NCBI RefSeq assembly: GCF_004355185.1
Contig: NZ_CP037922.1
Coordinates: 1,488,001 to 1,552,000, forward strand
Source of the DNA: Hymenobacter radiodurans
GTDB lineage: Bacteria; Bacteroidota; Bacteroidia; Cytophagales; Hymenobacteraceae
Direction: 5' to 3'
Length of the DNA: 64,000 nucleotides
In this document: positions 21,445-63,880 of the stretch, piece by piece
How the letters are laid out: every line of letters begins with the position of its first letter
Numbering within the stretch: position 1 is the first letter of the stretch
The notes under the pieces: model-generated
Databases searched by the model: none
What the model was told of the DNA's origin: nothing
What the model saw: the letters and a program-made list of their open reading frames with translations, nothing else
Made by a program: the position numbers and the translations under genes

Positions 21445-22737
21445 TTACAAAGCCCACAACTCTTCCCAGCTGGTAGTGTAGGCTCCACTTTTAAAATCAG
21501 CATTGCCAAGCCAGGACACTGACTGCTTGCCTCTGGGAATGGCGGCCGTAGCAAACCGTACCGTACCAGTGCCGAAGCGCTGGTTGAGCTGGTCAAGATC
21601 CTGTAGGAGTCGGGTGCGGGCCTCGCCTTTATTGGTTGTCGAGAACAAGTTGAGCTGCTGCTGACCCGCTCCCTCCAGGCCATCGAGGATCACGCCGGCT
21701 TTGATATAAGTAGTATGGGGCTGCCAAATACGCTTCAGCGCAATACGGGCATAGCGCAGCAGGTCGCTGGTATCATTGGTGGCTACGGGTAAGGATATAA
21801 CAGTAGAAAAGGTGTAGGGTGGAGGCTCGTTGCTATACTTGTTTTTACTGATAAATACTGTCATCGTGTTGACGGCAGAGCCTTGCTGCCGCAGCTTCTC
21901 AGCAGCCCGCGACGCGAAGGCGCCAACTGCGCCCAGTAAATCAGCGAAGGTGGAGAGGGGCTTCCCAAACGTGCGAGTGCAGGCGATGCTTTGCCGGACG
22001 GTTGTGCCACCATCTGACGGCTGGAAGGCATGACAGGGAATGCCCTGTAGCTCGCGCACCAGCCGGGCGCCAACCACGCCGCCTAGGTACTTGCGCACCC
22101 ACGACTCGGAGCACTGAGCCAGCGCAGCAGCGGTCCGGATGCCGGCATCATGCAGCTTCTGGGCGTACTGCCGCCCAATGCCCCACACGTCTTCTACGGC
22201 TACTTGCTCCAAGGCCCACTGCCGTTTCGCTTCGGTATCAAGGCAAAAAATGCCCCCCAGCGCCGGTTTTTTCTTTGTTATGCGGTTGGCGAGCTTAGCC
22301 AGCGTTTTGGTGGGCCCGATGCCAACGCAGGTCGGAATGTGGGTGCGGCGGTATACTTCCTGTCTGATGTCGGCGGCATACGTAGTGAGGCAGCCGTGGT
22401 AGCGCTCCATGCCGCGCAGATCCAGAAAGGCCTCGTCGATGGAGTAAATCTCAACGTCGGGCACCACGGAGCTGAGGTAGTGCATCACGCGGCGGCTCAT
22501 GTCGCCGTAGAGGACGTAGTTGCTGGAAAATACCCGCACCCCGTGTTGCGCCAGCAGGGGCTTCACTTTAAAATACGGCTCGCCCATCTTGATTCCCAAG
22601 TCTTTGGCTTCCTGGGAGCGCGAAATAATGCAGCCGTCATTATTGCTAAGCACCACCACGGGAACGCCCTTGAGTCGGTTTTGAAAAGCCCGTTCACAGC
22701 TCACGTAAAAGTTGTTGCAATCAACGAGCGCGAACAT
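21445..22737 (-). CDS. umuC: DNA polymerase V catalytic subunit UmuC
   Basis: The 430-residue Y-family polymerase begins MFALVDCNNFYVSCERAF (catalytic Asp of the palm) and has VFSSNYVLYGDMSRRVM, the second acidic motif YSIDEAFLD, and helix-hairpin-helix VWGIGRQYAQKL. The little-finger domain follows, and the C-terminus has the UmuC-type DUF4113 ending (NQRFGTGTVRFA). It carries out error-prone translesion synthesis. ATG 22737 is chosen over the upstream TTG at 22746; it overlaps the end of umuD by 17 bases. Expression should be under SOS control from the umuD promoter. Confidence 0.93.
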   Translation of the reverse strand: MFALVDCNNFYVSCERAFQNRLKGVPVVVLSNNDGCIISRSQEAKDLGIKMGEPYFKVKPLLAQHGVRVFSSNYVLYGDMSRRVMHYLSSVVPDVEIYSIDEAFLDLRGMERYHGCLTTYAADIRQEVYRRTHIPTCVGIGPTKTLAKLANRITKKKPALGGIFCLDTEAKRQWALEQVAVEDVWGIGRQYAQKLHDAGIRTAAALAQCSESWVRKYLGGVVGARLVRELQGIPCHAFQPSDGGTTVRQSIACTRTFGKPLSTFADLLGAVGAFASRAAEKLRQQGSAVNTMTVFISKNKYSNEPPPYTFSTVISLPVATNDTSDLLRYARIALKRIWQPHTTYIKAGVILDGLEGAGQQQLNLFSTTNKGEARTRLLQDLDQLNQRFGTGTVRFATAAIPRGKQSVSWLGNADFKSGAYTTSWEELWAL

Positions 22738-23191
22738 GCTGGCCAAGTTTGCCGGGGCGGGTTTCGTTCACGATATGCGTGACCACGCCCCAGACGGTGA
22801 ACACGTCCGGCGACTCAATGGGAACGGCCGTATAGGTGGGGTTGTCCGGCACAAGCCACCACGACTGGTCGGGGCGCTGAATGAGGCGCTTCAGCGTGTA
22901 ATCCATGCCGTCGAGGGAGGCAATAACGACGTCATTTGATTGGGGCTTGAGCGTGCAGTCAACGGCCAGCAAAGAGCCGCTGCGGATGCCGTCCTCGCCA
23001 CCCATCATACTGTCGCCGAAGCAGCGGATGAGGTAGGTGGCATCGGGGTGGGGCAGCAGCAGGGCGTTCAGGTCGAGCGCGGCAGACTCATGGTCGAGGG
23101 CCGGGGAGGGAAAGCCCGCTGGCACTAGGCTTTCGATGAAAGGCAGCCATACAGGCTGATGTAGAACAGAGACAACAATAAATTCACGCAT
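22721..23191 (-). CDS. umuD: SOS response protease-like UmuD
   Basis: The 156-residue S24/LexA-like protein contains the self-cleavage site VPAGFPSPA (cut expected between Ala and Gly), the nucleophile Ser in FGDSMMGGE and the general-base Lys in DYTLKRL. Cleavage stimulated by RecA filaments yields UmuD', which joins UmuC to form polymerase V. I use ATG 23191; the frame extends to a TTG at 23218, but the residues it adds are Cys-rich and unlike the family. It is directly followed by umuC with a 17-base overlap. Confidence 0.92.
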   Translation of the reverse strand: MREFIVVSVLHQPVWLPFIESLVPAGFPSPALDHESAALDLNALLLPHPDATYLIRCFGDSMMGGEDGIRSGSLLAVDCTLKPQSNDVVIASLDGMDYTLKRLIQRPDQSWWLVPDNPTYTAVPIESPDVFTVWGVVTHIVNETRPGKLGQHVRAR

Positions 23192-23226
23192 AGCAGGGCA
23201 GCAACAGGTTTGTTGCAAGTATACTC

Positions 23227-23247
23227 TATGCTAATTAAATTAGTATA
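23227..23247. promoter_or_regulatory. Palindrome upstream of umuDC, candidate LexA-type operator
   Basis: The core CTAATTAAATTAG (23231-23243) has perfect 6-base arms around one base; extending to 21 bases gives one mismatch. It lies 36 bases upstream of the umuD start, where an SOS operator would be expected. The LexA site of this lineage is not known to me, so the assignment is inference. Confidence 0.45.
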
Positions 23248-23427
23248 TGTTTTGACAATATTTTTAGTAAAACGGATGTAAAGTGCCACACGGAATACTA
23301 CGTGAACTGAATTTTGCCTTGAAAAACAAAAAAGATGCGGAGGGATAACTGTTCAGCTTAAAGCCTACTCTCGCTAAAATAAAGCTGCTACCTTACGAAC
23401 ATTATCCACCCTTACTGCAACACACCC

Positions 23428-23748: not shown

Positions 23749-23783
23749 AAAAGCCCCCCAGATTAGTTCTGGGGGCTTTTTTT
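23749..23783. terminator. Bidirectional intrinsic terminator
   Basis: A stem of AAAAGCCCCCCAGA against TCTGGGGGCTTTT with a short loop and runs of A and T on the two sides lies between the convergent small gene and the GntP gene. One arm has six Cs and the other five Gs; a lost G would explain the bulge. Confidence 0.8.
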
Positions 23784-23808: not shown

Positions 23809-25137
23809 TCAGTGGGAAGCCAGAAGCAGGACCCAATCGAGTAGCAGCACGCCCAACAATCCCACCACCGAAACGATGGTTTCCATCGCCGACCAAGAGC
23901 GAAATGTATCGCGCACCGACAGGTTAAAATATTCCTTAAACAGCCAGAAGCCGCTATCGTTGACGTGCGAAAGCAGCAGGCTGCCCGCGCCGATGGCTAG
24001 CACCATCAGGTTCGGATTTACGGCGACCTGTGTCATGGTAGGCAGCATAACTCCGGCCGCCGTCAGGCCCGCTACCGTAGCTGAACCCAGGCAAACCCGG
24101 ATAAAACCCGCGATCAGCCAGCCCAGCAGCAAGGGCGGCAAACCGGTGCCCTGCAAGCCAGCGGCAATTGCGGAACTGGCACCGCTGGCAATTAATACTT
24201 CCTTTAATGCCCCTGCGCCGCCAATGATAAGCAGCAGCAAGGCCACGTCGCGGATAGCAGAGCCGTAAGTTTCCATTATCTCGGGCATGCTTTTGCCCTG
24301 CCCACGACCTAAGCTGAACGTGGCTACCAGCACCGAAAGCAGCATTACCACGCCCGGATCGGCGACAAACGCCAGGACTGGAGCCAGCGGCCCGTTGGGG
24401 GGCAAAATTGCCTGCAAACTGAACACGAGCGAGAGCACCAGCACCGGCAGCAACGAAGACAGAAAGCTGTTCAGCCGGCCGGGTAATTGGTTGGTGGGGA
24501 GGGGCTCGCTCACAAACCCTGTCAGGGGCTGCGAGATAATGCCGCGCAGCGTGCGACTGTAAAAGATACCGGCGACTAGCACGGCCGGCACTGCCACCAG
24601 CAGCCCATACCCAAACGTCAGGCCTACATCAGCCTTGAATAGCACAACCAGTGCCGTGGGGGCAGGGTGAGGCGGCAAAAAGCCGTGCAGCACGGAAAGC
24701 GCAGCAAGTAGAGGCAACCCCACAAACAAGGTCGGGAGCCGGTATTGGTAGGCTACCGAGAAGATAAGCGGGATGACCAGCAGAAAGCCCACATTATAAA
24801 ACAGCGGAATACCGATGATAAAGCCCGTAGCCATCATGGTCCACTGAATGTTTTTGGCCCCCAACTGACCGACCAGCACGGCGGCAATTTGCTGGGCAGC
24901 GCCACTTTCGGCCACCAGTTTGCCCAGCATGGCGCCCAGCACCACCACCAGCACCACTGAGCCCAGCGTGTCGCCCAAGCCTTTTTGCACCGCAGCCAGC
25001 ACCTGCCCCGGCGCTAGACCTAGCGCTAGTCCCGCGGGAATGGTAACCAGCAAAAAGGCTAGGAAGGCATTCACCTTACCCCAGTTGATGAGGGCGATGA
25101 GAGCCAGCACCGTCAGCAGGATGATGAGTAAAGTCAT
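23809..25137 (-). CDS. GntP-family gluconate:H+ symporter
   Basis: The 442-residue polytopic permease has the GntP-family pattern: N-terminal VNAFLAFLLVTIPAGLALG, VLVVVLGAMLGKLVAESGAAQ, then FYNVGFLLVIPLIFSVAY and LHGFLPPHPAPTALVV. The segment PPHPAPT and the later GSATVAGLTAAGVMLPT are conserved in gluconate and related sugar-acid permeases. It imports a sugar acid with protons. ATG 25137 is preferred over a TTG at 25146. It lies downstream of the GH5 gene on the same strand with a 71-base gap, so the two could be co-transcribed, but no sugar-acid kinase is nearby. Confidence 0.88.
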   Translation of the reverse strand: MTLLIILLTVLALIALINWGKVNAFLAFLLVTIPAGLALGLAPGQVLAAVQKGLGDTLGSVVLVVVLGAMLGKLVAESGAAQQIAAVLVGQLGAKNIQWTMMATGFIIGIPLFYNVGFLLVIPLIFSVAYQYRLPTLFVGLPLLAALSVLHGFLPPHPAPTALVVLFKADVGLTFGYGLLVAVPAVLVAGIFYSRTLRGIISQPLTGFVSEPLPTNQLPGRLNSFLSSLLPVLVLSLVFSLQAILPPNGPLAPVLAFVADPGVVMLLSVLVATFSLGRGQGKSMPEIMETYGSAIRDVALLLLIIGGAGALKEVLIASGASSAIAAGLQGTGLPPLLLGWLIAGFIRVCLGSATVAGLTAAGVMLPTMTQVAVNPNLMVLAIGAGSLLLSHVNDSGFWLFKEYFNLSVRDTFRSWSAMETIVSVVGLLGVLLLDWVLLLASH

Positions 25138-25208
25138 GGGGGGCAAAATGAGGTATCTAGTGTAGGTGCCTTACTGCACTTACCACCGTAAAAGCCAGCG
25201 GGCAATGG

Positions 25209-27080
25209 CTACTGGCTGCTGGCTTTTTTTCCTTTGGCAACGGGGTCAAAGCGCAGCTCGCTTACTTGACTAACGGGCGCTTCTACCAACAGGCGCAAGA
25301 TATGGGAGCCCGGCCGTAAGATGGGGGTAGGAAGCGAAACGCTAGTCCAAGTGGTGCCGGCCGGGACGGTAATCGTGCCTAGTGGCTGGGTGTCTAGCTC
25401 CAGCCGGAGGCGGCCAGGCGTAGTGTTCGGTTGTAGGCGTATCTCGGCGGTATAAGGCCCGCCCGCAGCTACCGTCACGGTATAGGCGAGCCACTCGCCT
25501 GCGGCCAATTGGCTCACGGCAAACCCATTGGCAGCGTCGGGGCTGGCGCTGATGTCTACACCGTCGTTGCGGTAGGCCTTGCCTTGGTTGTGCGGCGTAT
25601 GGTCGCGGTAATCGGTGCGGGCGGAAAAGCTATCGTGGTAGGCTACGCCGTCGCGGCCCAGGTCGTAATCGGTGGCGGGAATAGTGCCGGGAATCGTGTG
25701 GGGGGCAAAAGGTACGCGCGTGCCGGCTGGTTGGGTGAGGGCCGCCAGCACATCCCGGTTTACCTGACAATTGGCAAACTGCACGTTGCGCAGCAGCGCC
25801 GTCCGGCCTTGGGGCGTGAGCAGGCTGCCGTAGGGCGCCACGCGCAGCAAGCCCGCGCCAGAATCTACGCGCTTGATATTCCAGTGGCACCAGCCAATAT
25901 TCTGCGCGTTAAGCCCCTGCACGGCGGCGGCAAACCACTCATTGGAGTTCTCGCCGGTTTCGCCTACCCACACCGGCACCTGCCAACGGTCGCGGAACGC
26001 CACTAGGTTACGGATCAGGTTAACTTGATTCGGATTCGGGTCGGTGGCCTCGGGTGCGTTGGAGCACCAGTAACGATGGGCGTTATACACGAGGTTGGTA
26101 CGGTCGCTGACGCCCAGCTTATCAGGTGTGAGGTTAGTATACTCGTTGCCGTAGCCGTTGCCTTCCAGCATGATCAGGTGCTGGTCGCCCTGGGCGCGCA
26201 CGGCCGTAATCAGGCGAGCGTATAGAGCCCATAGCTCCTGGTTATCGGCTGATAAACCATTGGCTGCGTTCAAGTTGTGCGGCTCATTGATGAGGTCGTA
26301 CATGGCAATGCGCGCGTCCTGCTTGTAGCGGGCTGCCAGCTTTTCCCACAAGCGCACGGTCACGTCCTGATAGACTAGCCGACCCTTTTTGTCGCGTCGC
26401 TTCCATAGGTCGAGCGGCCGGAAATTGTCGTTGATATTGCTATCGGTGCCCTGGCCGCCGGGGGCCGCGTGCAAGTCCAGAATGACGTACATGTTGTTGG
26501 CCGCGCACCAATTCACGACGTCATCAATGAAGCGAAACCCTTCCAAATCCTGATCAGTGAAGAGCTGATTCTGGTCGTGCCAGGTGCTGAGCTGCTCCAC
26601 GTAGGCTGCTACTTGTGCCTCGCTGCGTGGGTTGCGGATAACGGCCGTGCGGGCGCGGCGCTGGGGCGGCGTCAGGAACAAATCGTAGTGAAAAGGCAGC
26701 CGGACGGCGTTGAATCCCTGCTTACCCAGAAAATCAATGTCGGCCTTGGTAATGAAGTTCTTTCGGTACTGCCGATAGAACTCCTCGACTTCCGCCTCGG
26801 GCATGGTGCGCAGCAACCCTTGCTGAATACGCCACTGACTATTGAGCGTATCGGTACCGAGAATGTAGCTTTCCTGGAGCAGCCAGCCGCCCACGTTGTA
26901 GCCCCGCAGCACCACTTCGCGGCCGGCCGCATCTACCACGCGCGGCCCCGATGCGTGCAGAGGGCTCAGCGTTTGGGACAGGCAAAAAAGCCCCCCACCA
27001 AATAAGTAACACATAACTAGGCCCAGGTAACGGCCAAAAAGGAGAAGCAGGCGGGGAGTTTGGGGTAAGCGAGTCGTCAT
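25209..27080 (-). CDS. GH5 glucanase with C-terminal carbohydrate-binding domain
   Basis: The 623-residue secreted enzyme has an N-terminal hydrophobic segment (about 10-35, LLLLFGRYLGLVMCYLFGGG) acting as signal. The GH5 TIM barrel follows: VLRGYNVGGWLLQESY, FNAVRLPFHYDLF, VILDLHAAPGGQG, the acid/base Glu in YDLINEPHNL, HRYWCSNAPE, and the nucleophile Glu in VWVGETGENSNEW. The RGYNVGGWL start is typical of exo-beta-1,3-glucanase-like GH5 members. From about residue 480 a CBM6/35-like beta-sandwich is seen (DGVDISASPDAANGFAV, GEWLAYTVTV, LRPGSHILRL). It probably hydrolyses a beta-glucan outside the cytoplasm. ATG 27080 is used because the earlier TTG adds a charged non-signal stretch. Confidence 0.85.
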   Translation of the reverse strand: MTTRLPQTPRLLLLFGRYLGLVMCYLFGGGLFCLSQTLSPLHASGPRVVDAAGREVVLRGYNVGGWLLQESYILGTDTLNSQWRIQQGLLRTMPEAEVEEFYRQYRKNFITKADIDFLGKQGFNAVRLPFHYDLFLTPPQRRARTAVIRNPRSEAQVAAYVEQLSTWHDQNQLFTDQDLEGFRFIDDVVNWCAANNMYVILDLHAAPGGQGTDSNINDNFRPLDLWKRRDKKGRLVYQDVTVRLWEKLAARYKQDARIAMYDLINEPHNLNAANGLSADNQELWALYARLITAVRAQGDQHLIMLEGNGYGNEYTNLTPDKLGVSDRTNLVYNAHRYWCSNAPEATDPNPNQVNLIRNLVAFRDRWQVPVWVGETGENSNEWFAAAVQGLNAQNIGWCHWNIKRVDSGAGLLRVAPYGSLLTPQGRTALLRNVQFANCQVNRDVLAALTQPAGTRVPFAPHTIPGTIPATDYDLGRDGVAYHDSFSARTDYRDHTPHNQGKAYRNDGVDISASPDAANGFAVSQLAAGEWLAYTVTVAAGGPYTAEIRLQPNTTPGRLRLELDTQPLGTITVPAGTTWTSVSLPTPILRPGSHILRLLVEAPVSQVSELRFDPVAKGKKASSQ

Positions 27081-27587
27081 GCTGCGGGACTTAAGACGCT
27101 TCCCTACTTCGGCCAAACCACCGCCTGCGGCAGACGCTGATCAAACCGTTTTAGGAAGGAAGTGGAGAGGAAAAGCAGCGCTTTTATGAGCCGCCGCTTC
27201 CGGATCGGCCCAATAAGGTAGAAGGCTTTTGCGAAAGAAAAGAGCACTCGTTTCAACCAAAAAAGCCCCCCAGTCGCTTGCCTGACGCTTAAGGCACACG
27301 CTTACTCAAGCTGTCGAATGCTCATCTGTAGCGCTTGGGCGCGCTTACTGGCCAGCGCGCTCCATCATCATTGGCGCTTAAAAAACAATTGCGTTCCGGA
27401 AAAAATGTGCCCTTGTCTAAGGCTGGATTCGTGGATCCGGCCTTGCCTTTGGGAGATTTTATGGGTCTAGTCTTCGCAAAGTAGCGTTACATCAGGTTGG
27501 CCTACATAGCAAAAGCCCCCCGTGAGGAGGGCTTTTGCTATTTCATGTAAATAAGGCTCGCTGGTGGAGCGGGGATACCCGCACAGT
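27081..27587. other. Intergenic region upstream of GH5
   Basis: About 500 bases without a credible gene. It contains two copies of the GGGGGGC motif (27266-27271 and 27516-27521, both on the minus strand) and the terminator at 27506-27541. The promoter for the GH5 gene is expected near 27081-27250 but I could not identify it. Confidence 0.5.
27506..27541 (-). terminator. Intrinsic terminator downstream of the ybbAP unit
   Basis: A perfect 13-base stem (27506-27518 with 27529-27541, ending GCTTTTGCTAT) around a 10-base loop lies 47 bases beyond the ybbP stop. Confidence 0.75.
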
Positions 27588-30130
27588 CTAGCTGACCTCG
27601 CCGCGCAGCACCTCCAACGGCGGGCGCGTCAGTACGTCGCGGCTATTGAGCAAACCGATAAGCGCGGTGAGAGCCGTGGTGAGCAAGGCCAGCAGGAGCA
27701 GCGGACTGATTTGGGGGGCAAAAGGCACCTCAAAAACGAACACACCTAACGCCCAAGCTGCCATTACGGCTAATCCCAGTCCAGCCACTGCTGAGAGCAA
27801 GCCCAGCAGCGCGTATTCGACCAACGTAATGCGCAGAATCTGGGCCCGGCTGGCGCCGAGAGTGCGCAGCAGCACGCTTTCCCGCACCCGCTGGTAGCGG
27901 CTTACCACTACCGAACTCACCAGTACCAGCAAGCCCGTAGCCATACTAAACAAGGCCATAAAGCGGATGACGAAGGAAATTTTGGTGAGAATCTCATCCA
28001 GCGTTTGCAGAATCAACCCTAAGTCAATGGCTGATACGTTGGGATAATTAGCGACTAGTTCGCGCTGCACCGTGGCCAGGGTCGCATTGTCGGGCACGCG
28101 GGTGAGCAGCACGTGAAACTGCGGAGCCGGCTCTAATACACCCTTCGGAAAGACCACTAGAAAGTTGGTTTGCACCCGGCTCCAATCGACGGTGCGGGTG
28201 CCGCCCACGATGGTCACGAGCGGAGCGCCTTGCACGTTGAAGGTCAGTGTATCGCCAATTTTAATCTTTAGCCGATCCGTAAATCCGTCATCGAAGGAAA
28301 CGCGCGGAATGCCGTCTGGGCCGACGAAAGGGGCCTTGCCAGCAGCCAGTGTTTCAGAACTAATCAGAGAATCGCGGTAAGTGACGCGATACTCCCGCCC
28401 CAAAGCCCCTTTGGAAACACCGCTGGTAGTATCTTTTTTCAACTCCGCAGCCGAGCGCCCATTGATAGCGGACAAACGCATCGTCACGACGGGAACCTGC
28501 TGTAATACGGGCAACTTATTGCGCTTTACGAGCTGGGTGACGCCTTCCCGCTGGGCCGATTGAATATCGAACAGAACCAAATTGGGCTGCCCGTTGGTGG
28601 ACGATATTTCAACTTGGCTCAGGAGCAAACCTTGCAATAAATACAGCGTTGCCAGCAGAAATACGCCCAGTCCGATAGAAACGGTGAGTAATAGCGTCTG
28701 GTTATTAGGTCGATATAAGTTGGCTAAACCTTGCCGCCACACATAGCTCCAGGAACTAGGGAAATACTTTCGCACAGCGCGACGTAGGCCTTCACCGAGC
28801 CCAGCCAATACCGCAAACGTGAGCAATAAGCCCCCGCGAAGCCTAGCGCCAGCTTCCAGTCGCGAGTTTGGAGGTAGGCGAAGCCGGTGATAAACAGGAT
28901 AATCAGCCCGTACACCAAGCCCCGCAGCGGATCGGGGCTCGCCGTGTCTTCTTCCAGCGAGGCGCGCAACGTGCGCAGCGGCGACACCCGCCGAATGCTC
29001 AGCAAGGGCAGAAGCGCAAACAACACCGCCACGAATACGCCCGTGAGAATACCTTCGGCCACCGCCGACCACGAAATGCCCACGCTCACCGTGACGGGCA
29101 GAAAACCTTCCACCACCTTCGGCAGCAGCAACTGCACGCCGGTGCCCAAGGCAGCGCCCAAAATGGCCCCCAGCAGACCCATTAGCGCCGTTTGGAGCAA
29201 ATAGATTAGGACGGCCTGCCAGCCGCTGGCACCTAAGCAGCGCAACACGGCTACCGCGGCCACCTTCTCGCGCACATACAAACTCACGGCACTCGCCACG
29301 CCCACGCAGCCCAGCAGCAGTGCCACGAAAGCCACCAGATTCAGAAATCGAGTGACATTGGTGAACGAACGACCCGTCTGGCGCTTGCGCTCAGCCACGG
29401 TGTCGCTGTCGATGTTAGCTTGGTCGAGGCGGGCCTCCAGGGGTTTGATGGTTTGGTCGACGTTGGTACCAGGCGCGAACTGATAATAGGTGCGATACTG
29501 CACCCGACTGCCGCGCTGCAAGAGGCCAGTTTGCTCCACAAACTCACGCGGAATAAATACCGTGGGCGCAACGGAGGCGCTAAAACCAGACTGGCCCGGC
29601 GTCTTGCGCACCCGGCCGGCAATGCGAAAAGTCAGTTCCCCAACCTTGATAGAATCACCGGGACGAGCGGCAAATTGCGCCAGCAACGCGTCATCCACTA
29701 AGGCCACGCGCTGATTGGTGGTGCCTGCTTCCCGAAACGCAGCTACGGCAGTAGTTGGCTCCGTGAGCCACTCGCCATAATATGGAAAGCCCCCCGTGAG
29801 CGCGCGCACCTGAGCCAAGCGTACGCCCTGGCCTTTGGGAAACTGCACCAAAGAAGCAAAAGCGACTTCGTCGCTGCGGCGTTGACCGAGTTGGTGCAGA
29901 GTGGTTTGGAGGGTGGAGTCAAACGGTTGGTTGGCGGAGAGCACCAAATCGGCCCCCACTAGCTCACGCGCCTGCTCGTCGATGCTGCGGGCCAAGTTGT
30001 CGCCGAAGCCGTTGATACCCACCAGCGCCGCAATGCCCAGCACAATAGCCGAGGTAAACAGCAGCAAGCGGGAACGGCTGCGGCGGCTGTCGCGCCACGC
30101 CATGCGCCAAAGCCAGGGAAGATTAGACAT
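27588..30130 (-). CDS. ybbP: YbbP-type ABC transporter permease (one apparent frameshift)
   Basis: Two overlapping frames form one 847-residue protein when the C5 run at 28831-28835 is read as C6 (minus strand LGFAGGLLLTFAVLAGLG). It has the duplicated FtsX/MacB permease layout: N-terminal helix (SRSRLLLFTSAIVLGIAAL), a large periplasmic domain, three helices, a central pair, a second periplasmic domain and three final helices ending RPPLEVLRGE. With the ATPase gene just upstream and a divergent lipoprotein lysophospholipase, it reproduces the Escherichia coli ybbA-ybbP/tesA cluster. Such transporters are thought to drive mechanical extraction of envelope lipids or lipoproteins; the substrate is unproven. 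Confidence 0.82.
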
Positions 30131-31151: not shown

Positions 31152-31862
31152 ATGAAAACCCTATTGTCTGTATTTAGTTGCTGCTTGCTGCTCACGCTAG
31201 CTAGCTGCGGCTCCGATTCACAAACCGCTACGTCGGTCGCTAGCCCGCCGGCGGCTGATAAAAAGCCCCCCACAGCGGGCTCACGCACTATTCTGTTCTT
31301 TGGCAATAGCCTGACGGCGGGCCTCGGCGTAGAGCCAGAAGAAGCTTTTCCAGCGTTGGTAGGCCAAAAGATTGATTCGGCTGGCCTAGGCTACACGGTG
31401 ATAAATGCTGGTTTGAGCGGCGAGACAACTGCTGGCGGCCGCAGCCGCGTGGGTTGGGTGCTGCGTCAGCCCGTGGATGTGTTTGTGCTGGAGCTGGGGG
31501 GCAATGATGGCCTGCGCGGCCTGCCGCTCACCGATACGCGCCGCAACCTGCAGGCTATTATCGACACCGTGCGCCGAATCAGCCCCCAAACCCAAATTGT
31601 GCTGGCCGGCATGCAGATTCCCCCTAACCTAGGTGCCGATTATGCCACCCAATTCAAGCAGACGTATATCGATCTGGCCCGCGAAAACAAGCTGGTGCTC
31701 ATTCCTTTCCTGCTCGAAGGCGTAGGCGGCGTAGCCAAGCTCAACCAGCCCGACGGGATTCATCCCACGCCCGCCGGCCACCGCCTCATTGCCCGTACCG
31801 TGTGGGATATCTTGCAGCCACTGCTTAAGCAGCCCGTAGCGGCCGATGCAGCGGTGAGGTAG
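31152..31862 (+). CDS. tesA: TesA-like SGNH lysophospholipase/arylesterase, lipoprotein
   Basis: From ATG 31152 the 236-residue product has a lipoprotein signal with lipobox LASC (Cys19). A linker follows, then SGNH blocks: FFGNSLTAG (nucleophile Ser53), INAGLSGET, LGGNDGLRG and the Asp/His pair in PDGIHPTPAGH. TesA-family enzymes hydrolyse acyl thioesters and lysophospholipids in the periplasm. Here lipid anchoring replaces the soluble periplasmic form of Escherichia coli. The frame extends upstream to 31041 but the lipobox fixes the start. It is divergent from ybbA, as in Escherichia coli. Confidence 0.87.
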   Translation: MKTLLSVFSCCLLLTLASCGSDSQTATSVASPPAADKKPPTAGSRTILFFGNSLTAGLGVEPEEAFPALVGQKIDSAGLGYTVINAGLSGETTAGGRSRVGWVLRQPVDVFVLELGGNDGLRGLPLTDTRRNLQAIIDTVRRISPQTQIVLAGMQIPPNLGADYATQFKQTYIDLARENKLVLIPFLLEGVGGVAKLNQPDGIHPTPAGHRLIARTVWDILQPLLKQPVAADAAVR

Positions 31863-37373: not shown

Positions 37374-37396
37374 AGCAGAGTTATGCGATTCATAAG

Positions 37397-37495
37397 AACG
37401 TCATGCAGAGCAGAGCGAAGCATCTCGCGTGCTGACGCAGGATTAGTAATCAGACATCAGCACGCGAGATGCTTCGCTCTGCTCTGCATGACGTT
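37397..37495. repeat. Intergenic inverted repeat, family A
   Basis: Perfect 39-base arms (37397-37435 and 37457-37495) with core GCAGAGC, GCGAAGCATCTCGCG. Other members lie at 53529-53620, 55458-55554 and 63922-64000. It sits inside the pxp operon between pxpC and pxpA. Confidence 0.9.
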
Positions 37496-37523
37496 TTGGA
37501 GTTAGTGTCATAAAAATGAATAG

Positions 37524-51076: not shown

Positions 51077-51113
51077 TGCTGGGGGGCAAATTTGCCCCCC
51101 AGCATCAGGCTGG
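51068..51113. terminator. 46-bp perfect palindrome, bidirectional terminator
   Basis: The 46 bases are a perfect palindrome centred on GGGGGGCAAATTTGCCCCCC, that is, two copies of the recurrent motif facing one another. It lies between convergent genes (transporter and GH3) and includes the last bases of the transporter gene. It would form an exceptionally stable hairpin on either strand. Confidence 0.8.
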
Positions 51114-53452: not shown

Positions 53453-53528
53453 GTGGGAAAGGATAGGATGGGTTTGGAGCGCAAAAGGGAGGTGAAAAAG
53501 CCCCCAGAAGTGTTAGTTGAAAACGTAT

Positions 53529-53620
53529 GTCATGCAGAGCGGAGCGAAGCATCTCGCGTGTTTAGTGGGATTGCTAATCCTGCGTCAGCACGCGAGATGC
53601 TTCGCTTTGCTCTGCATGAC
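53529..53620. repeat. Intergenic inverted repeat, family A
   Basis: Arms 53529-53560 and 53589-53620 (32 bases, two mismatches) carry the same core as 37397-37495. It lies between the GH3 and GH43-like genes. Confidence 0.85.
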
Positions 53621-53672
53621 GTTCTGGTTATGAGGATAATGCTGTTCAACAAGTAGAGACAAATATGTGTCT

Positions 53673-55436
53673 CTACTTAGCCGTCACGACTGGTATTCTG
53701 GTGGAAATTCCGTTTTCGTTGATGGCTTCGATGGTGAAATAATAGGGAAGTTCTTTGTCCATGCCTTTGAAGTAAAACTCAGGGGAGCCGTGCACCATGA
53801 TACAATTGTAGAGCTTATCGGAGCTGATGCCAACGTGGATGTTGTAAGCGTAAGCGTTGTCGACGGCTTTCCATTTCAGCCAGGCACTACGCTTGTCTTT
53901 TTCAGTCCGCAGCACGATGAAGTTCTTCACAGCTTCGGGCACAGAACCGTTGCCTTTACCAAATACGCGCAGGCCGCTGATGGCAAATTTGCCGGTGGGC
54001 ATGTGGATGTTTTCGAGCTTGAGGTAGCGCGTTTTTATTGGCTCGGCTAGCTCAATATAGTCGTGGGGGACGTCGGTTTTGTTCTGGCTTTTATCCACCA
54101 GCATCTTCCATTTTTTGCCGTCCATGGAGTGCCAAAGCTTGTACTGGTGGTATGTGCCTTGTTGCTTACCTAGGAATTCTGCGTCTTGGTCGGCGTAGTT
54201 GATCTGGATGGCGTGCACCGTGCTGAGGTTGCCCAAATCGGTCTGGAGGTATTCGCCTTTATTGCCCGTGGCGGCGCTCCAGTAGGTTTTGATGCTTTCA
54301 TCTACGGCGAAGTTGGGCGAAAAGCCCCCCAGCGTTGAGGATACCTGCACTGGCTTCTGGTAGTTAAGGAGCATCCAACCTGTGAAGCGACTTTTGAGGT
54401 GGTCGGCGGGGCCATCGGGCAAGTAGTGCGGATAGTCGCCAAACATGGTGTTGCTATACAGCACGCCGTCTTTATCGAAGCCCGCGGGCCAAAGGCCGAG
54501 GCGCCGCTCGAAGTTGTTTTTCACCGATACCACCATTGTGGAGTGGTGCCACCAGTTGCCGTAGGTATCCTGGAAAGTGTTGCCGTGGCCGGCGCCGCGG
54601 GCAAAGCCGCCGGGCTTGTAAGCAAATGGGTTGTGAGGCTGCGGTGTAAACGGGCCTAGGGGATTGTCGCTCACCTGCACCCCGTCGGCGTAGCCGCTAA
54701 ATTCGGTGCCGGGCGCGCCGTACTGGAGGTAGTATTTGCCGTTGTGCTTGTTCATCCAGGCGCCTTCCATAAACGGGTCAAGGAAGGTGTTGTCGAGGTA
54801 TTCGCCGAACCGCTGCCAGCCAAATCGCTCGTCATTCAGCCCGAACATTTCCTTGGGCTGCCCAATAGGCTGAAAAGTCTTGCGGTTGATCTGCTGGCCG
54901 TAGAGTGGAAACTCATTGCTACTGCCCCAGTACAGATAGAGCTTGCCATCATCGTCGAGGAAAAAAGCAGGGTCCCAAGCGCCGATTTGAAAGGGCTCTA
55001 CGGCTTCTTTCCACTCGTTTGCTTTAGGGTTGGTGCTCATCCAGATCGGAAAGTTTTTCTCGTGCGTCGACCCAAATACCAGCAGCGTATCGCCCATTAC
55101 AAACACGGCTGGCGCGCACAAGTCGTCATAGACTTTATGGTGAGGCTTGAGAAAGGACCGCGAAACGAACTTCCAGCTATACAGGTCTTTGCTGTGCCAG
55201 TAGCCCCATTGGTTGGTTGAAAAAAGGTAATAGTCACCTTTAAACAAAGTGATAACCGGGTCGGCCGTAGCGCGGTGCTTACCCGAAACTGCAAAGTCAG
55301 GAATGGGCGTGTAGCCGTAATCCAAGTTTAGTGGGTTGCAATACGTCCGCTGGCCAGGACTGGCCGTTGGTTGAGCTTGTGTAACCAAACTCAGCAACGC
55401 AGCAAAGCACAAGAGCAGGGTTCTGAGCATGGGCAT
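53673..55436 (-). CDS. GH43-like enzyme with discoidin (F5/8 type C) and FN3-like domains
   Basis: The 587-residue secreted protein starts with a signal peptide (LRTLLLCFAALLSLVTQAQ). A five-bladed propeller follows with the family acids: Asp in HRATADPVI, Asp in IGAWDPAFFLDDDG and Glu in FMEGAWMNKH. From about residue 365 there is a discoidin-type beta-sandwich (NFAVDESIKTYWSAATGNKG, YLKLENIHMPTGKFAISGLRV), and at the end an FN3-like part (SAWLKWKAVDNAYAYNI). GH43 members cleave arabinose- or xylose-containing glycans; the activity in this locus is uncertain. I use ATG 55436 rather than the TTG at 55448. Confidence 0.85.
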   Translation of the reverse strand: MPMLRTLLLCFAALLSLVTQAQPTASPGQRTYCNPLNLDYGYTPIPDFAVSGKHRATADPVITLFKGDYYLFSTNQWGYWHSKDLYSWKFVSRSFLKPHHKVYDDLCAPAVFVMGDTLLVFGSTHEKNFPIWMSTNPKANEWKEAVEPFQIGAWDPAFFLDDDGKLYLYWGSSNEFPLYGQQINRKTFQPIGQPKEMFGLNDERFGWQRFGEYLDNTFLDPFMEGAWMNKHNGKYYLQYGAPGTEFSGYADGVQVSDNPLGPFTPQPHNPFAYKPGGFARGAGHGNTFQDTYGNWWHHSTMVVSVKNNFERRLGLWPAGFDKDGVLYSNTMFGDYPHYLPDGPADHLKSRFTGWMLLNYQKPVQVSSTLGGFSPNFAVDESIKTYWSAATGNKGEYLQTDLGNLSTVHAIQINYADQDAEFLGKQQGTYHQYKLWHSMDGKKWKMLVDKSQNKTDVPHDYIELAEPIKTRYLKLENIHMPTGKFAISGLRVFGKGNGSVPEAVKNFIVLRTEKDKRSAWLKWKAVDNAYAYNIHVGISSDKLYNCIMVHGSPEFYFKGMDKELPYYFTIEAINENGISTRIPVVTAK

Positions 55437-55562: not shown

Positions 55563-56924
55563 TTATTTCTTAATCTGAGGGCTTTCAAAGCCGAGTTTGG
55601 TGAGGCCGCGCTGCACATCGGGGCTGCTCATGAATAGCTTCCACAGGAGGCCGGTGCGGTGGTTTTCAATCATGACGATGATAGGGCCTTGATCGATGGC
55701 GAGGTGCGATTTGGCGTACCAATTATGGTGCTCACTGAAGCCATCCACGAAGCCGTATTCGCTCCATATTTTGTCCCCCAGATCGTTGTAGAAGTGCTTT
55801 AAGGCCGCCATCGACTCGGCCGGCGCGTAAGGCATAGCCGATAGGGCGGCAGTAGGCGAAATCACGCCCAAATCTTCAGACGGGGAGTGGGCCGCGTAAC
55901 CTTTGTGACTATCTGAGGCGGTAAGGCCCCAGCTGTTGGGTCCGTAGCCTTTATACTTCTTCGGGTTGTCGACGCAGTAGGCGTAGTTGATGCGGGTGTG
56001 GGCCTGGTTTTGCTGCATGTAGTCGGCGTACTGATCTTTGAGCCCACGCGGGTCGATGCCCAGAAAAGAGTAGTGCGAGAAAAACAGCGGCCCGCCGTAG
56101 TCGAAGCCCAAGGGCAGCTTGATTTTGTAGAACTCCTTGCCATTCTTGAAGTAGTCGCCGGTGGCCCAGCCTTGGTCGTACACCTTTTTGTCGATGGGAA
56201 ACTTAGGTGAGGAGGCCGCCATGACATAGGTAATTAAGCACTCATTCCAGCCATGAATTTGGTGGTTCATGCTCCAGCCGTTGTTGGGGCTCCAATGCCA
56301 GTAGAGCACATTTTGCCCCCCTTGCTGGTGCCAGTTCCATTCCACGCCTTCCCACATCCACAGAATACGGTTGCGCAGTTCCTGCTCCGTTTTGCTTTCC
56401 TGGGTGAAGTATTGGCGGGCACAAATCAGCCCCTGAAACAGAAAGGAAGTTTCCACTAAGTCGCCACCGTCGTCCTTTTGGCTAAAGCGGATAACCTTGC
56501 CGGTTTCCCCATTCAGCCAGTGCGGAAACACACCGTGAAATGAATCCGACTTCCCCAGAAACTTAACGATTTTCAGGATTCGCGCCGCCGCTTCGTCCCG
56601 CGTAATCCACTTCCGGTCGGCGGCCACAATGATGGCCATAATGCCGAAGCCCGTGCCGCCGGTGGTTACTACTTCGCCGCCATACTCGTAGGCCACGTTG
56701 CTCCGCTCGCGCGCCATGCCCGATACCGGGTGCCCAAAGTCCCAGAAGTACCGAAACGTCTGACGCTGAACCAAGTCCAGCAGTTGCTCATCTGAGAGGT
56801 TGCGGGGCCGTTGGCGTGGGTCGAATTTGGTGGTCTGGGGGGCTTTTTTGGGTGCTGGTTTTTGCTGGGCAACTAAAAATCCAGGTAGCAGCAGATACAG
56901 AAGTAGGAGAAGTTTTGCTTTCAT
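55563..56924 (-). CDS. GH144-like endo-beta-1,2-glucanase (glycoamylase-like family)
   Basis: The 453-residue protein has a signal peptide (KLLLLLYLLLPGFLVAQ), then LSDEQLLDLVQRQTFRYFWDFGHP, YEYGGEVVTTGGTGFGIMAI, DGGDLVETSFLFQGLIC and LYWHWSPNNGWSMNHQIHGWNE. It ends with a C-terminal GPIIVMIENHRTGLLWKLFM. This is the (alpha/alpha)6-barrel family (Pfam 10091) that includes endo-beta-1,2-glucanases now called GH144. It follows susD in the same orientation and should cut a glucan at the surface or in the periplasm. Family membership is firm; substrate is inference from the family and the adjoining GH3. Confidence 0.85.
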   Translation of the reverse strand: MKAKLLLLLYLLLPGFLVAQQKPAPKKAPQTTKFDPRQRPRNLSDEQLLDLVQRQTFRYFWDFGHPVSGMARERSNVAYEYGGEVVTTGGTGFGIMAIIVAADRKWITRDEAAARILKIVKFLGKSDSFHGVFPHWLNGETGKVIRFSQKDDGGDLVETSFLFQGLICARQYFTQESKTEQELRNRILWMWEGVEWNWHQQGGQNVLYWHWSPNNGWSMNHQIHGWNECLITYVMAASSPKFPIDKKVYDQGWATGDYFKNGKEFYKIKLPLGFDYGGPLFFSHYSFLGIDPRGLKDQYADYMQQNQAHTRINYAYCVDNPKKYKGYGPNSWGLTASDSHKGYAAHSPSEDLGVISPTAALSAMPYAPAESMAALKHFYNDLGDKIWSEYGFVDGFSEHHNWYAKSHLAIDQGPIIVMIENHRTGLLWKLFMSSPDVQRGLTKLGFESPQIKK

Positions 56925-58696: not shown

Positions 58697-61600
58697 TTAT
58701 TTGAAGTTGACGTTCAGCCCTACCGTGATGGTGCGGCTGATGGGGTAGCTGTTTAGTTCGATGCCTGAATCGAGGGGGCCACCGGACAGCTCCGGCGTGA
58801 AGCCACTGTAGTTGGTTACCGTAAACACGTTCTGGGCAGCGGCAAATACACGAAGCGAAGTCATGCGAAACCGCTCAAGCGCAGCTATTGGGATTGAATA
58901 GCCTAGTACCACGTTGGTGAGGCGCAAAAACGACCCCGACTCCAGAAAGTAGGTCGAGTTGGGCATGCTGCTCATTAGGGACCGAGGGTCGGAGTTGGAC
59001 GGGTTGGCGGCCGTCCAGCGGTCGTTAGCGAAATCAGCTTCGACGTTATCGGTGCTGGCGTTGCGCGCCTGCTTTTTGGCGTTGTACACCTTGTTGTTCA
59101 GATTGCCCGAAAACACGAAGGAGAAATCCACATTCCGGAAATTTAGCCCCCCATTCACACCGTAATAGATCGGTGGCTGATACGAGCCGAAGTAAGAGCG
59201 GTCGAGCAAGTCGACGGTGCCGTCGCCGTTGGTGTCAGCATACTTTAAGTCGCCCACCTGAGGATTGAAAGTGGAGCGGGGGCCGTTGGCAATTTCATCG
59301 GCCGATTGGTACACGCCAATAGCATCGAGCAGGTAGAAGCTGCCCGCCGCCACGCCGTTGTCGGAGCGCGTTACGTTGTTGGCACCAGCAAACAACGCCT
59401 GCCCACCGTTTAGCTCGGCAATGCGGTTTTTGTTGAAGGTGGCATTCACGCCAATGTTGTAGCTCCAGTCGGGGCTTTCGCCTATGCTGGTGCGCCAGTT
59501 AAGAGAGGTTTCCACGCCTTTATTGGTGATATCGGCGGCGTTGGTGATAAACTGGTTATTGGGGTCGCCTAAGATGCCGGGAATGTTAATCGGAATGAGG
59601 GCATCGGAAGTAGTCTTGTCGTAGTAGGTTACTTCGCCCGTCAAGCGGTTGTCGAGCAAGCCAAACTCTACTGCGAAGTCATACTCTGTGGTGGTTTCCC
59701 AGCGCACGTCCTGGTCCTTAATTTCCGTAATTGTGGCTCCCAATACTGGCTGGCCATTAAATACATAAGGAATATTCGAGTTAGCCGTCACGATGTAGGT
59801 ATCAGCCGGAATCTGGTCGTTGCCAAGCTGGCCGTAGCTGGCCCGCAGCTTCAGGAAGTTCAGCACCGTGTTGCCTTTCAAAAAGGCTTCATCCGACACT
59901 ACCCAGCCCAAGCCCACTGAGGGGAAAAAGCCGTTGCGCTGGTCGCGGTTAAACCGCGAAGTGGCATCGTGGCGGAGGTTGGTGGTGAAGAGGTAACGGT
60001 CGAGGAAGGCGTAGTTGATGCGCCCGAGGTACGATAGCCGGCTATCCTTCGAGGCTGCCGAACCGTTCACCGAAGAGTTCGGGTCGCCAGCATTTAAGTA
60101 CCACTGATCCGGGTCGACGGGAACATCGCGGCGGGCGGCCGAAAACTGATTGTCAAAGCCTTTCTCTACCACAGTACCTACCAACACCGTTAGGTCGTGC
60201 TTATCGAGGAAGCGCTGCTGATACGTGGCGGTGTTTTCCCAGAGGTAGCGGGAGTTATTGTTCTGCGTCACGTTGAGGTTACTACGATCTGAGCGCTGGT
60301 TGCCACCGGAAGTCAGGAACGTCACCTCATCATTACGGTATTGGTAGTCATACACGCGACGGTTGTTGTAGTTCAGGTCGAGGTTGATGGCCGAGCGGAG
60401 GGTAAGCGCAGTAATGGGCTTTACGTCTACGGCCACGGTGCTCTGCAAGCGGTTTTCCAACGACTTATTGTTGTTCTTCTCGATATCCAGCAACGGATTA
60501 CCGACGTTGCCGAAGGCGGAGGTGTTCCCGTACCGGTCGCCTACTTTGGACTGGATAATGGGGGCCGCGCGGTAGGCGTTGCCATAAGCGGCTCCTATGT
60601 TGACGTCGCGCGTATTGGCGTGGCTAAAGGATGCCTGCGAGCTGATCGTTACCTTATCCGAAAGATCGAAGGCGGTGTTAGAACGTACCGTCAGGCGCTG
60701 AAACTTGTTATTGATGACGATCCCGTCATCCTGAAGCAAATTGCCAGAGAAGTAGTAGCGCACGTTCTCACTCGCACCCGACACGGCTATGTTGTGATTC
60801 TGAAAGGTGCTGCGGCGCAGGATCTCGTCGTACCAGTTGGTAGTGCCCGTGAAATTCGGAATGTTGGTGCTAGGCGAAACATCACCCAAGTAGTTCACAT
60901 ACTGGTCGGCGCTGGCCATATCTACTAAGCGAGCTGCTTGCTTAAAGCCCCCCGTAGCGCTGTAGCTGAGCACCGGTTTGCCTTCTTTGCCCTGCTTGGT
61001 GGTGATGATAATAACACCATTTGCCCCCCGCACACCATAAATAGCTGCCGCCGACGCATCTTTCAGAACGTCGATGGTTGCAATGTCGGCGTTGCTCAGG
61101 TTGCGGATATCAGTGGTTTGCACGCCGTCTACCACATACAACGGGTTAGCGCCGGCCAGCAGGGTACCCGTTCCTCGGATACGCACGACGGGCTGGGAGT
61201 TAGGAGCACCGTTATTCGTGATTTGTACCCCAGAGATTTTGCCCTGCAACGCTTGGGTAGCCGTTTGTACGGGCTGATTGACAATCTCAGTGCCTTCCAC
61301 GCGGGCCACGGCGCCGGTGAGGTCGCGCTTGCTTTGCGTACCGTAGCCCGTAACAACCACCTCACCGAGGGCCTGCGTATTAGGCGCCAGATTAATGTCG
61401 ATGGTGGTACGGCCGCCGATGGCTACTTCCTGCGGGTTGTAGCCCACAAAGGAGAAAACCAGCGTGCCGTTATCCGGGGCGGTGATAGTGTAGCGACCCT
61501 CAGGATCGGTAGCGGTACCGTTGCTGGTGCCTTTCACCACTACGTTTACACCGGGCAGGCCCCCGCCCGTTTCGTCAATTACGCGGCCGGTTACGGTAAT

Positions 61601-61756: not shown

Positions 61757-61882
61757 ATAAAGGAAGGGTTTGGAGTGGGAAATAGAAATCAGAGAGTACT
61801 TCAAATGCCGGAATGAGCTCCTAATTGGAGACTACAGGCATTACTCGTCAGTTGTATAACTGCAACCAAATCAGGAGGAAAG

Positions 61883-61896
61883 CGCAATCGTTTGCG
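61883..61896. promoter_or_regulatory. LacI-family-like operator candidate
   Basis: CGCAATCGTTTGCG has 5-base inverted arms (CGCAA/TTGCG) with a central CG, the form bound by LacI/PurR-type repressors. It lies 127 bases upstream of the susC start. No cognate regulator is in the window. Confidence 0.45.
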
Positions 61897-62274
61897 GGTC
61901 ACTTCCAAGTCTTGGGTTTACTAGATGACACGTAGCACTGGAAAAGGTGAAGAAGCTTGTTGGCTCTGCATATAATGCAGCAGCGATATTAATCGGGCCT
62001 CCTACGCACGGAGGGTACTCAAACGACAGGCAGCGAATCGAAAAAACACGCAACCATTTGCTCATCATGTAGGAGGGCCGCGTCGGGCTGGGCAGGGGGC
62101 TTTTCGAATAGCCTGGGTCTCTGTCTTTCCTAATCCAGCAGATCGGTACTAGCTATCGGCTGTTTGTTTTGTTTAGAGCGAACGAAGCAAATAACTGCAG
62201 CCGTACAAGCAGTACTGTTCTAGACTGCGTAAGGTTGTGTCTGGGCAGTATTAAATGGCTATCTGAGAGGGCAC

Positions 62275-62303
62275 AAAAAAGGTTGACGAGTTCATCGTCA
62301 ACC
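62275..62303 (-). terminator. Intrinsic terminator of the M28 gene
   Basis: GGTTGACGA (62281-62289) and TCGTCAACC (62295-62303) form a perfect 9-bp stem with a 5-base loop; six As to the left read as a U-run on the minus-strand transcript. Confidence 0.8.
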
Positions 62304-62383
62304 TCTATGCTTTCTGCCGCAGCAAATTTGCCTATTGATAATCAGGATTTAAGGCCAAAAAAGCCCCCCAGCGTGATTTTTGG

Positions 62384-63880
62384 CTATCGTTCCAGCTTAA
62401 AATCCTTGTCTACAGCGGGGCGCTCCTTTTGGTTGGCTACGGCCCAGCCCGTTAGGTAAATCCAGCGGGTGACGCCGGCTAGTTTCTGAATATTAATGCG
62501 CTCGGGCTCGTCTTCAGGCGTATGGTAATCCTTGTGCAGCAGCGTGGTGTAGCAGATAGATGGAATATTGAGGCGGGCATAGGAAAGATGGTCGGAGCGG
62601 AAGTACCAGCCTTCGGGGTGAGTGGGCTTGTCCCAGAGCGTGTCGAGTTTAAATTGGGCGCTGGCTTGGTTGGCTGCCAGAGCCGTATTGACCAAGCCAA
62701 GGGAGTTGCGATGGGGCGGTTGCGAGCCCAGCAACGCCGCGCTATCCGGAGCATTGCGGCCCAGCATTTCCGCATTCAGCACCGCCACAATTGATTCACG
62801 CGGCACGGTAGGATGGGTAGCGTAGTAGCGCGAGCCTAGCAACCCACGCTCTTCGGCGCCGTGAAACACAAACAGAGCAGTGCGCTTGGCTGGCTTTTGC
62901 TTAAAAGCGCGCATCGTAGCGAGCAATGCCGCGCAACCCGTAGCGTTGTCGTCAGCGCCATTCCAGATGGAGTCGCCGGCCACGATTTTGCGCACGCCGT
63001 CGTGGTCTTGGTGGGTGCTGAACAGCACGTTTTCCTTTTTCAGCTGCGCGTCGGTGCCGGGCACTGTCGCCACAATATTTACCGATGGATACGCGAAGGT
63101 TTCCACTTTCAGGGTAGCCGTCAGCTGCTGGCCCGGCTGGCGGACCCAAGCTAACGCATCGGCGGGCAGCCAAACGGTGGGCGCCTGCTCAACTACTTTG
63201 GTGGCAACCTCGCCGGGCAAGCTGTAGCGGCCGCGCTCGTAGCTGGTGGTCCAGTTTTCATATAAGTTCTGGGCTCGCGCATCCGACACGAACACAACAG
63301 CCACAGCACCTGCCTTCACTAGCTCCACAGATTTGTCGCGCATGGTTTGCCCCACAAACCGGCGGTAGCTTAAGTCAGCTGATGGCGTGCCCGAAAACAG
63401 AATAGCTACGGCTTTACCTTTCACGTCGATGTTGGCCATTTCAGCCGCCGTACCATTACCCACAAATACCAGGGGGGCATTTATAGTAGCCACACCGGGG
63501 GCCAAAATCATGGCATCTTTGCCGTGGGTGAGCTGGTGCGTACCAATGCTCAGGCGGCTGTCTTTGGTGAGGCGGGTGCGCTGAATGTGAAAGAACTGGA
63601 AATAGGTGCCATCGTCGCCGGCGGGCTGGAGGCCGATGGCACGGGCCTGCTCCGCTATCCAGGCAGAGGCTTTTAGCTCGTCTAACGTGCCGCCTTCCCG
63701 GCCCCGGAAATGGTCGCCGCCAATAGCAAACAAGTCGCGTTTTAGATCTTCTTCCTTAATGGCCGAGCGTTTGTCGCCGGCAAACGGACTGCGCTGGGCC
63801 GTGGCCGCGCCGTTATTTAGGAGAAACAGCCCTAGCAAACTTCCGGACAGAAGGAAACGAGAAAGTATAGCGTGTTTCAT
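62384..63880 (-). CDS. M28 family metallopeptidase with PA domain
   Basis: The 498-residue secreted enzyme has a signal peptide (LLSGSLLGLFLLNNGAATAQ), a protease-associated domain (about 140-255; VFVGNGTAAEMANIDVKGK), and an M28 catalytic core. Zinc ligands are His in STHQDHDGV, Asp in NGADDNATG, Glu pair in FHGAEERGLLGS, then Asp/Glu later (VAVLNAEMLGRN) and His in DYHTPEDEPERIN. It removes amino acids or dipeptides outside the cytoplasm. ATG 63880 is used; a TTG at 63907 is possible but gives no better signal peptide. It lies upstream of susC but is separated by a terminator. Confidence 0.88.
   Translation of the reverse strand: MKHAILSRFLLSGSLLGLFLLNNGAATAQRSPFAGDKRSAIKEEDLKRDLFAIGGDHFRGREGGTLDELKASAWIAEQARAIGLQPAGDDGTYFQFFHIQRTRLTKDSRLSIGTHQLTHGKDAMILAPGVATINAPLVFVGNGTAAEMANIDVKGKAVAILFSGTPSADLSYRRFVGQTMRDKSVELVKAGAVAVVFVSDARAQNLYENWTTSYERGRYSLPGEVATKVVEQAPTVWLPADALAWVRQPGQQLTATLKVETFAYPSVNIVATVPGTDAQLKKENVLFSTHQDHDGVRKIVAGDSIWNGADDNATGCAALLATMRAFKQKPAKRTALFVFHGAEERGLLGSRYYATHPTVPRESIVAVLNAEMLGRNAPDSAALLGSQPPHRNSLGLVNTALAANQASAQFKLDTLWDKPTHPEGWYFRSDHLSYARLNIPSICYTTLLHKDYHTPEDEPERINIQKLAGVTRWIYLTGWAVANQKERPAVDKDFKLER

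Follow-up and report, generated by a model that had tools for sequence, protein, structure and literature searches.

To our knowledge no family besides the Pasteurellaceae and Neisseriaceae has established uptake sequences, and it has long been asked how a single word comes to be present in a genome in thousands of copies. In these two families such sequences are well established, as described in PMC7811141. The uptake signal sequence (USS) of the Pasteurellaceae is made up of a core, AAGTGCGGT or ACAAGCGGT, and two AT segments, and the DNA uptake sequence (DUS) of the Neisseriaceae is GCCGTCTGAA. According to the description in PMC1626085 both have a strong consensus, with more perfect copies than near-misses, which is not the case for ordinary regulatory binding sites, and an orientation bias in reading frames together with a bias to gene termini is reported in PMC2346458. 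Within the Bacteroidota, Riemerella columbina is described as preferring its own DNA in transformation (PMC7965970). Here we describe a frequent word in a genome of the same phylum, that of Hymenobacter radiodurans. The window, the whole 64,000-nucleotide stretch of DNA that was analysed, covers bases 1,488,001-1,552,000 of contig C2 (4,728,901 bp) in a genome of 4.92 Mb. The word is a unit of about 13 bp that consists of [T/C]GGGGGGC and a tail of about five A/T bases (YGGGGGGC plus W5, where Y is T or C and W is A or T). The k-mers given for R. columbina are A/T-rich, at about 2-8 times composition, and are nothing like this word (PMC7965970).

GGGGGGCWW was found 37 times in the window as compared to 3.65 +/- 2.07 times in dinucleotide shuffles, and 0 of 100 shuffles reached 37. 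An earlier note on this DNA had claimed such an excess, with about 34 copies at 22,253-63,477; 35 of the 37 copies lie at 22,250-63,480. About 1.05 Mb of the genome was read as sequence and whole-genome figures are pattern counts. Counted across the genome, GGGGGGCWW occurred 3,225 times (1,595 + 1,630) and the reversed pattern 157 times (80 + 77), while the longer YGGGGGGCWWW occurred 3,015 times in the 4.9 Mb as compared to 51 for its reverse. The excess is therefore real and larger than claimed, and the enrichment is neither near expectation nor lost on correction.

This expansion is restricted to one clade of four species. Counts of YGGGGGGCWWW on both strands were 3,015 in H. radiodurans, 3,521 in Hymenobacter sp. 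BT188 (G116), 2,516 in H. qilianensis JCM 19763 (G010) and 3,143 in H. roseosalivarius DSM 11622 (G086), and each of the other 200 of the 204 family genomes scanned had 60 or fewer. Among 395 genomes of the phylum, a set that held H. radiodurans and three other congeners and was without the remaining three clade members, only H. radiodurans had more than 98 copies. In a tree built for 20 genomes from a single 908-aa protein, the four carriers (H. qilianensis as a partial sequence) were placed on one side of a 100/100 branch; the evidence for the clade grouping consists of this single-gene tree, of collinearity and of the presence of the motif. Comparable words of their own were not found in 40-60 kb from each of four motif-free outgroup genomes. 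Among viral contigs 83 stretches matched the motif, with one match each among the best 80 of the 83. A literature search by title and abstract, with subscription papers and preprints outside the search, found no description of this word in work on uptake sequences in Bacteroidota or on Hymenobacter motifs, competence or transformation.

The shape of the unit was assessed in an 800-kb sample consisting of 40 evenly spaced 20-kb stretches of the H. radiodurans genome. The run length was almost always six G (614 exact six-G runs, 10 seven-G and 1 eight-G), and the base preceding the 538 copies of G6C with two A/T bases was T in 75% and C in 22%. A strong A/T tail followed at positions +8 to +13, typically AAATT, TTTTT or ATTTT and in many copies A first then T, similar to the USS, in which an AT segment lies directly 3' of the core and is often A first and T last (as described in PMC1626085). 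Perfect TGGGGGGC plus three A/T bases was present 397 times as compared to 212 single mismatches when the common C start (116) was set apart, or 328 in a strict count that included it. USS described in the same source likewise have thousands of copies on both strands, mostly in genes, with perfect copies outnumbering near-misses (PMC1626085). Perfect core plus tail occurred 0 times in 418 kb of outgroup DNA, and the motif-free congener G032 had one YG6CW3 in 800 kb. The five-G form, TGGGGGC plus three A/T bases, was also in excess (174 in 800 kb as compared to 11.5 scaled from outgroups), perhaps reflecting terminator stems or one-step motif losses.

The AT content around the motif oscillated with a 10.5-bp period. 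The amplitude was 0.030 (standard error 0.003; 506 sites) in H. radiodurans and 0.031 over 1,071 sites pooled from the four genomes, which are not independent of each other, with smoothed AT peaks near -31, -19, -10, +21 and +42. Controls from the same genome at this period gave 0.003 for S7W3 (S, G or C; n = 1,480), 0.003 for S7W5 (n = 389) and 0.016 (standard error 0.006, n = 125) for G-rich sites; the same three controls in motif-free G032 gave 0.003, 0.009 and 0.006, and small outgroup control sets reached 0.016. The oscillation was present at coding copies and at non-hairpin intergenic copies. A second AT peak was seen at +20 to +24, positions without measurable conservation across the clade. 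A second AT-rich peak about 12 bp on is the layout of USS segments 2 and 3 in the description of PMC1626085, and the word differs from the USS in that protection covers the first tail only.

Retention was measured at 174 sites in a 292-kb collinear region of the H. radiodurans genome aligned to the other clade members. Coding copies were intact at 88 of 112 aligned sites in BT188, 72 of 112 in H. qilianensis and 33 of 52 in H. roseosalivarius, and intergenic copies at 19 of 32, 11 of 28 and 11 of 16 (genomes in this order here and below). All letters of the 8-bp core matched in 76%, 64% and 60% of the coding sites as compared to 36%, 33% and 27% for nearby same-phase 8-bp windows. Third-codon-position G/C was substituted in the core at 17/288, 10/280 and 16/132 positions (3.6-12%) as compared to 24% elsewhere (Fisher p = 2e-16, 3e-20 and 7e-4). 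G6C without the A/T tail was substituted in 15/43 (35%), 15/47 (32%) and 1/6 cases, as compared to 5.9% and 3.6% for the motif in the first two genomes, and five-G runs in 35-40%. Because tail-less G6C changes at 32-35% in two genomes, it is the tail-bearing word and not the G run that is protected. Pooled over the four related genomes at sites that had been chosen as motif in H. radiodurans, substitution was 2.3-8.4% within positions 0 to 12 (the Y, the six G, the C and the first five A/T bases), while everywhere else between -12 and +29 it was 8.5-26%. The whole unit, A/T tail included, is strongly retained. A codon or G-run artefact was ruled out by the same-phase window, third-position and tail-less G6C controls. 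Single sites turn over, with 21 of 75 common to all four species in an 80-kb four-way alignment. In the H. qilianensis assembly G runs were repeatedly one base short and the frame of the 908-aa gene was split, both probably through sequencing error; copies that seem lost there for want of a single G probably reflect such homopolymer errors, and retention in this species is probably a lower bound.

The origin of the copies was assessed by comparing 374 motif-coded protein segments to outgroup DNA that lacks the motif, namely 117 loci and 800 kb of G032. Of the segments 63 could be aligned with an identity of at least 50%, and 60 of these were gap-free in the motif-coded residues; in a smaller outgroup locus set 10 of 11 were gap-free. 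Hence the words arose within existing genes by substitution rather than by insertion, and insertion of a tiny mobile element is ruled out by the same alignments. Many outgroup segments had the same residues in other codons (LGGK as TTG GGT GGG AAA) and others differed in residues. Both kinds are found in the window. The residues are identical at 29787-29795 (minus strand, TGGF) and identical with other codons at 31496-31504 (plus, LGGN). The copy at 24397-24405 (plus) lies in a gap-free alignment (ILPPN/VLPPG), the outgroup has RGSN in place of RGAN at 61021-61029 (minus), and in an ABC ATPase gene it has DSGSI in place of DGGQI at 41680-41688 (plus). A second copy in the ABC ATPase gene, at 41910-41918 (plus), encodes LGGF, again with other codons in the outgroup, and starts LGGFSGGMKQR, which we take to be the ABC signature. 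A cost at the protein level was not significant (motif-coded residues 0.657 identical to the outgroup, flanks 0.724; p = 0.065). An origin by substitution and inverted pairs that form hairpins are also described for the USS (PMC1626085, PMC2346458).

Genes in the 800-kb sample were called with a simple open reading frame scorer, by which 80% of the sample is coding. Of the 513 copies 352 were coding and 156 intergenic, with 5 at an edge, and the coding copies were found in all frames, 201 sense and 151 antisense. Antisense copies were over-represented in the first fifth of genes (49/151, Kolmogorov-Smirnov p = 0.0015) while sense copies were uniform along genes (p = 0.70). Spacing was near random, with gaps between copies close to exponential (coefficient of variation 0.90) and counts in 20-kb intervals close to a Poisson distribution (variance/mean 0.98). 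A simple stem test detected a partner arm that makes a hairpin at 43 of 156 intergenic copies as compared to 7 of 352 coding copies. Hairpin copies occur in the window as well. The copies at 23751-23759 and 27513-27521, both on the minus strand, form the 3' arms of a terminator-like hairpin (-19.9 kcal/mol, z -2.1) and of a second hairpin (-28.1 kcal/mol, z -5.75), and those at 51081-51089 (plus) and 51092-51100 (minus) are the 5' and 3' arms of one hairpin at 51,066-51,113 (-50.6 kcal/mol, z -9.6). Hairpin pairs, copy number and a strong consensus are features in common with the DUS. The DUS differs in having no flanking motifs, as described in PMC1626085, and in being read by the minor pilin ComP (PMC12616744).

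Together these data describe a genome-wide, non-polar word that is maintained by selection or drive, and among the four classes of signal offered by the earlier note (recombination, uptake, nucleoid protein, methylation avoidance) we favour uptake or self-recognition. A nucleoid-protein role keeps some standing, Chi-type recombination is disfavoured, and avoidance is disfavoured because the excess seen is its opposite. Our working interpretation, to which we give slightly under an even chance, is that YGGGGGGC plus W5 is a self-DNA recognition word of the four-species clade, most likely for DNA uptake through a machine that is independent of pili. That an uptake or self-recognition word was born on one stem branch within a genus, outside the Proteobacteria and without type IV pili, we hold somewhat more tentatively. 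In an ancestor common to the four species, point mutation would have spread the word across the genome, and copies born in this way would then have been kept through selection for their retention or through a bias in transmission. A DNA receptor at the cell surface or in the periplasm may prefer word-bearing DNA, in which case segments that had gained the word would be taken up from dead kin more readily than others and would return to the genome by recombination, and the word would accumulate and persist through this preferred uptake. A protein presumably reads the word, this reader may be an uptake receptor, and uptake may need no type IV pili. The feature set resembles the USS also as described in PMC7811141. 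The differences are that the Hymenobacter core is unrelated, belongs to another phylum and is confined to 4 of 204 family genomes, and that no type IV pilus ATPase was found. Because the cores are unrelated and a search of the four genomes gave no PilT-family ATPase, we do not class the word as a member of the USS/DUS group.

The genes of DNA uptake fit this interpretation in part. The genes comEC, dprA and ComEA-like helix-hairpin-helix (HHH) genes were each found in all four clade genomes. The transformation genes of Riemerella given in PMC8459023 include comEC, dprA, comF, recA and those of an HHH protein and an outer-membrane protein, and no type IV pilus gene is among these. Several points weigh against uptake. 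The known USS and DUS systems act through type IV pili, as described in PMC12616744, and TIGR01420 (PilT family) matched in 0 of the 4 clade genomes and in 13 of 14 control genomes, in a search that did not extend to pilins or secretin and in which controls also match related secretion ATPases. Motif-free relatives had comEC in 8 of 8, dprA in 5 of 5 and HHH genes in 5 of 5 genomes searched; being equally present there, these genes do not explain the clade restriction. Retention was uncorrelated with tail quality or phased AT, and conservation of the phased flanks was not clear (p = 0.01 in 1 of 6 tests). DNA aligned in neither BT188 nor H. qilianensis had 0.47 copies/kb as compared to 0.68 in DNA aligned in both, and by these densities accessory DNA is generally only mildly poorer in the word. 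Finally, the literature on Hymenobacter competence or transformation, within the search described above, gave nothing relevant. As a separate observation, motif-free H. telluris had a PilT-family match below cut-off (G009:C16:16938-17738) and was alone in this among the 18 genomes searched.

The expansion is sharply confined to four related genomes as against the 200 others scanned, with orthologous sites that can be aligned before and after. If this is a true uptake word, the origin of such systems and the DNA receptor of the Bacteroidota become directly testable; if it is a new uptake or self-recognition word, the four extant species and some 200 relatives without the motif would form a before-and-after experiment on the origin of a word and on the receptor change that initiated it. 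If it does not serve uptake, some factor reads a word of about 13 bp about 3,000 times per genome.

One such factor could be a clade-peculiar intracellular DNA-bending protein, acting in the nucleoid, in segregation or in replication/repair, that binds the word so that evenly tagged chromosomes are favoured. We consider this unlikely, at a level that still calls for attention. The 10.5-bp AT phasing suggests bent or wrapped DNA, motif density is even along the chromosome, and density is lower on the 190-kb contig C1 (26 GGGGGGCWW, about one-fifth of the chromosomal density). Against such a protein, motif density showed no origin or terminus structure along the chromosome (origin and terminus taken as the extremes of GC skew) and no strand structure, and single sites turn over. 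Perfect copies also exceed near-misses, which regulatory binding sites as described in PMC1626085 do not show.

The word could also be made and kept by methylation-linked biased repair or by a restriction-modification relation, as a counterpart of the cyanobacterial highly iterated palindrome HIP1 (GCGATCGC), although we consider this improbable. Like HIP1 it is a very frequent short word with a patchy lineage distribution, and HIP words are described as highly frequent, variable between lineages and tied to methyltransferases (PMC4390886). HIP1 is palindromic in that description; the Hymenobacter word, judged from its logo, is not, and its A/T tail belongs to the protected unit.

A still smaller chance is given to the reading that the word is a recombination hotspot of the Chi type, acting on AddAB or RecBCD. 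Chi is short, G-rich, over-represented in core DNA and strand-polar. The Hymenobacter word is also short and G-rich, lies in and between genes, and is denser in shared DNA, but copies on the leading and lagging strands numbered 272 and 241 (p = 0.19), showing neither strand polarity nor a general orientation bias, and for lack of this polarity the Chi-type signal is disfavoured. Strand polarity as a property of the word was rejected on these direct strand counts. The earlier note saw the motif as neither a simple codon effect nor replichore-polar; codon bias, dinucleotide use and G-run mutation fail to explain it. Chi is shared more widely than the 4/204 pattern seen here, in which 200 genomes are at background level, and the A/T tail and helical phasing would be left unexplained. 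That the word arose neutrally, as a side effect of codon use, of terminator stems or of biased mutation in G runs, is barely credible, as the frame bias toward LGGK, FAPQ and NLPP and the 43 intergenic copies in terminator-like hairpins are outweighed by the 345 of 352 coding copies outside such hairpins, the presence of both orientations and all frames, the faster change of tail-less G6C (1/6 in H. roseosalivarius) and the single copy in 800 kb of G032.

Within the window, YGGGGGGCWW accounts for 32 copies, 31 after 21 kb and 1 before. Copies intact in all four species were found at 36667-36675 (minus), 37256-37264 (plus), 56837-56845 (plus) and 59144-59152 (minus). An M1 peptidase gene holds three copies, at 32595-32603 and 32796-32804 (both plus) and at 33031-33039 (minus), the last of which is intact in all three other clade members, and an Nramp gene holds one at 38541-38549 (plus). 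The copy at 25700-25708 (plus) is intact in H. roseosalivarius, that at 26988-26996 (minus) in BT188 and H. roseosalivarius, and that at 27713-27721 (plus) in BT188 and H. qilianensis. Further copies are located on the plus strand at 25138-25146, 35642-35650, 44180-44188 and 47187-47195, and on the minus strand at 22250-22258, 27263-27271, 31263-31271, 54322-54330, 60945-60953 and 62361-62369. Off-consensus forms comprise a seven-G variant at 49490-49498 (plus) and variants with A before the G run at 52706-52714 (plus), 56313-56321 (minus) and 63472-63480 (plus).

The earlier note had reported no copy in 1-21 kb. This part of the window is indeed strongly depleted, but GGGGGGC occurs there five times, at 3259, 3699, 5050 (minus), 8779 (minus) and 9133, two of them with an A/T tail. 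The first of the tailed copies, at 8771-8779 on the minus strand, is the only canonical one (YG6C plus two A/T) in the AT-rich island and is intact in H. qilianensis; the second, at 9133-9141 on the plus strand, is an off-consensus nine-G run with C and an A/T tail. The island itself, at 2860-20353, is common with H. qilianensis at 90% identity and had no alignment in 17 kb upstream in BT188. It predates the split of H. radiodurans and H. qilianensis or was exchanged, yet it is nearly motif-free.

A second repeated element was observed in the window. A near-perfect inverted repeat of about 95 bp is present at 37385-37510 and 53515-53630, with predicted folds of -87.8 kcal/mol (z about -13) for the first and -79 kcal/mol (z about -12) for the second. 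Several copies were found in 60-kb stretches of BT188 and H. qilianensis, at least one in H. roseosalivarius and two in H. norwichensis (G023), and the element appears similar to repetitive extragenic palindromes (REP) or miniature inverted-repeat transposable elements (MITE).

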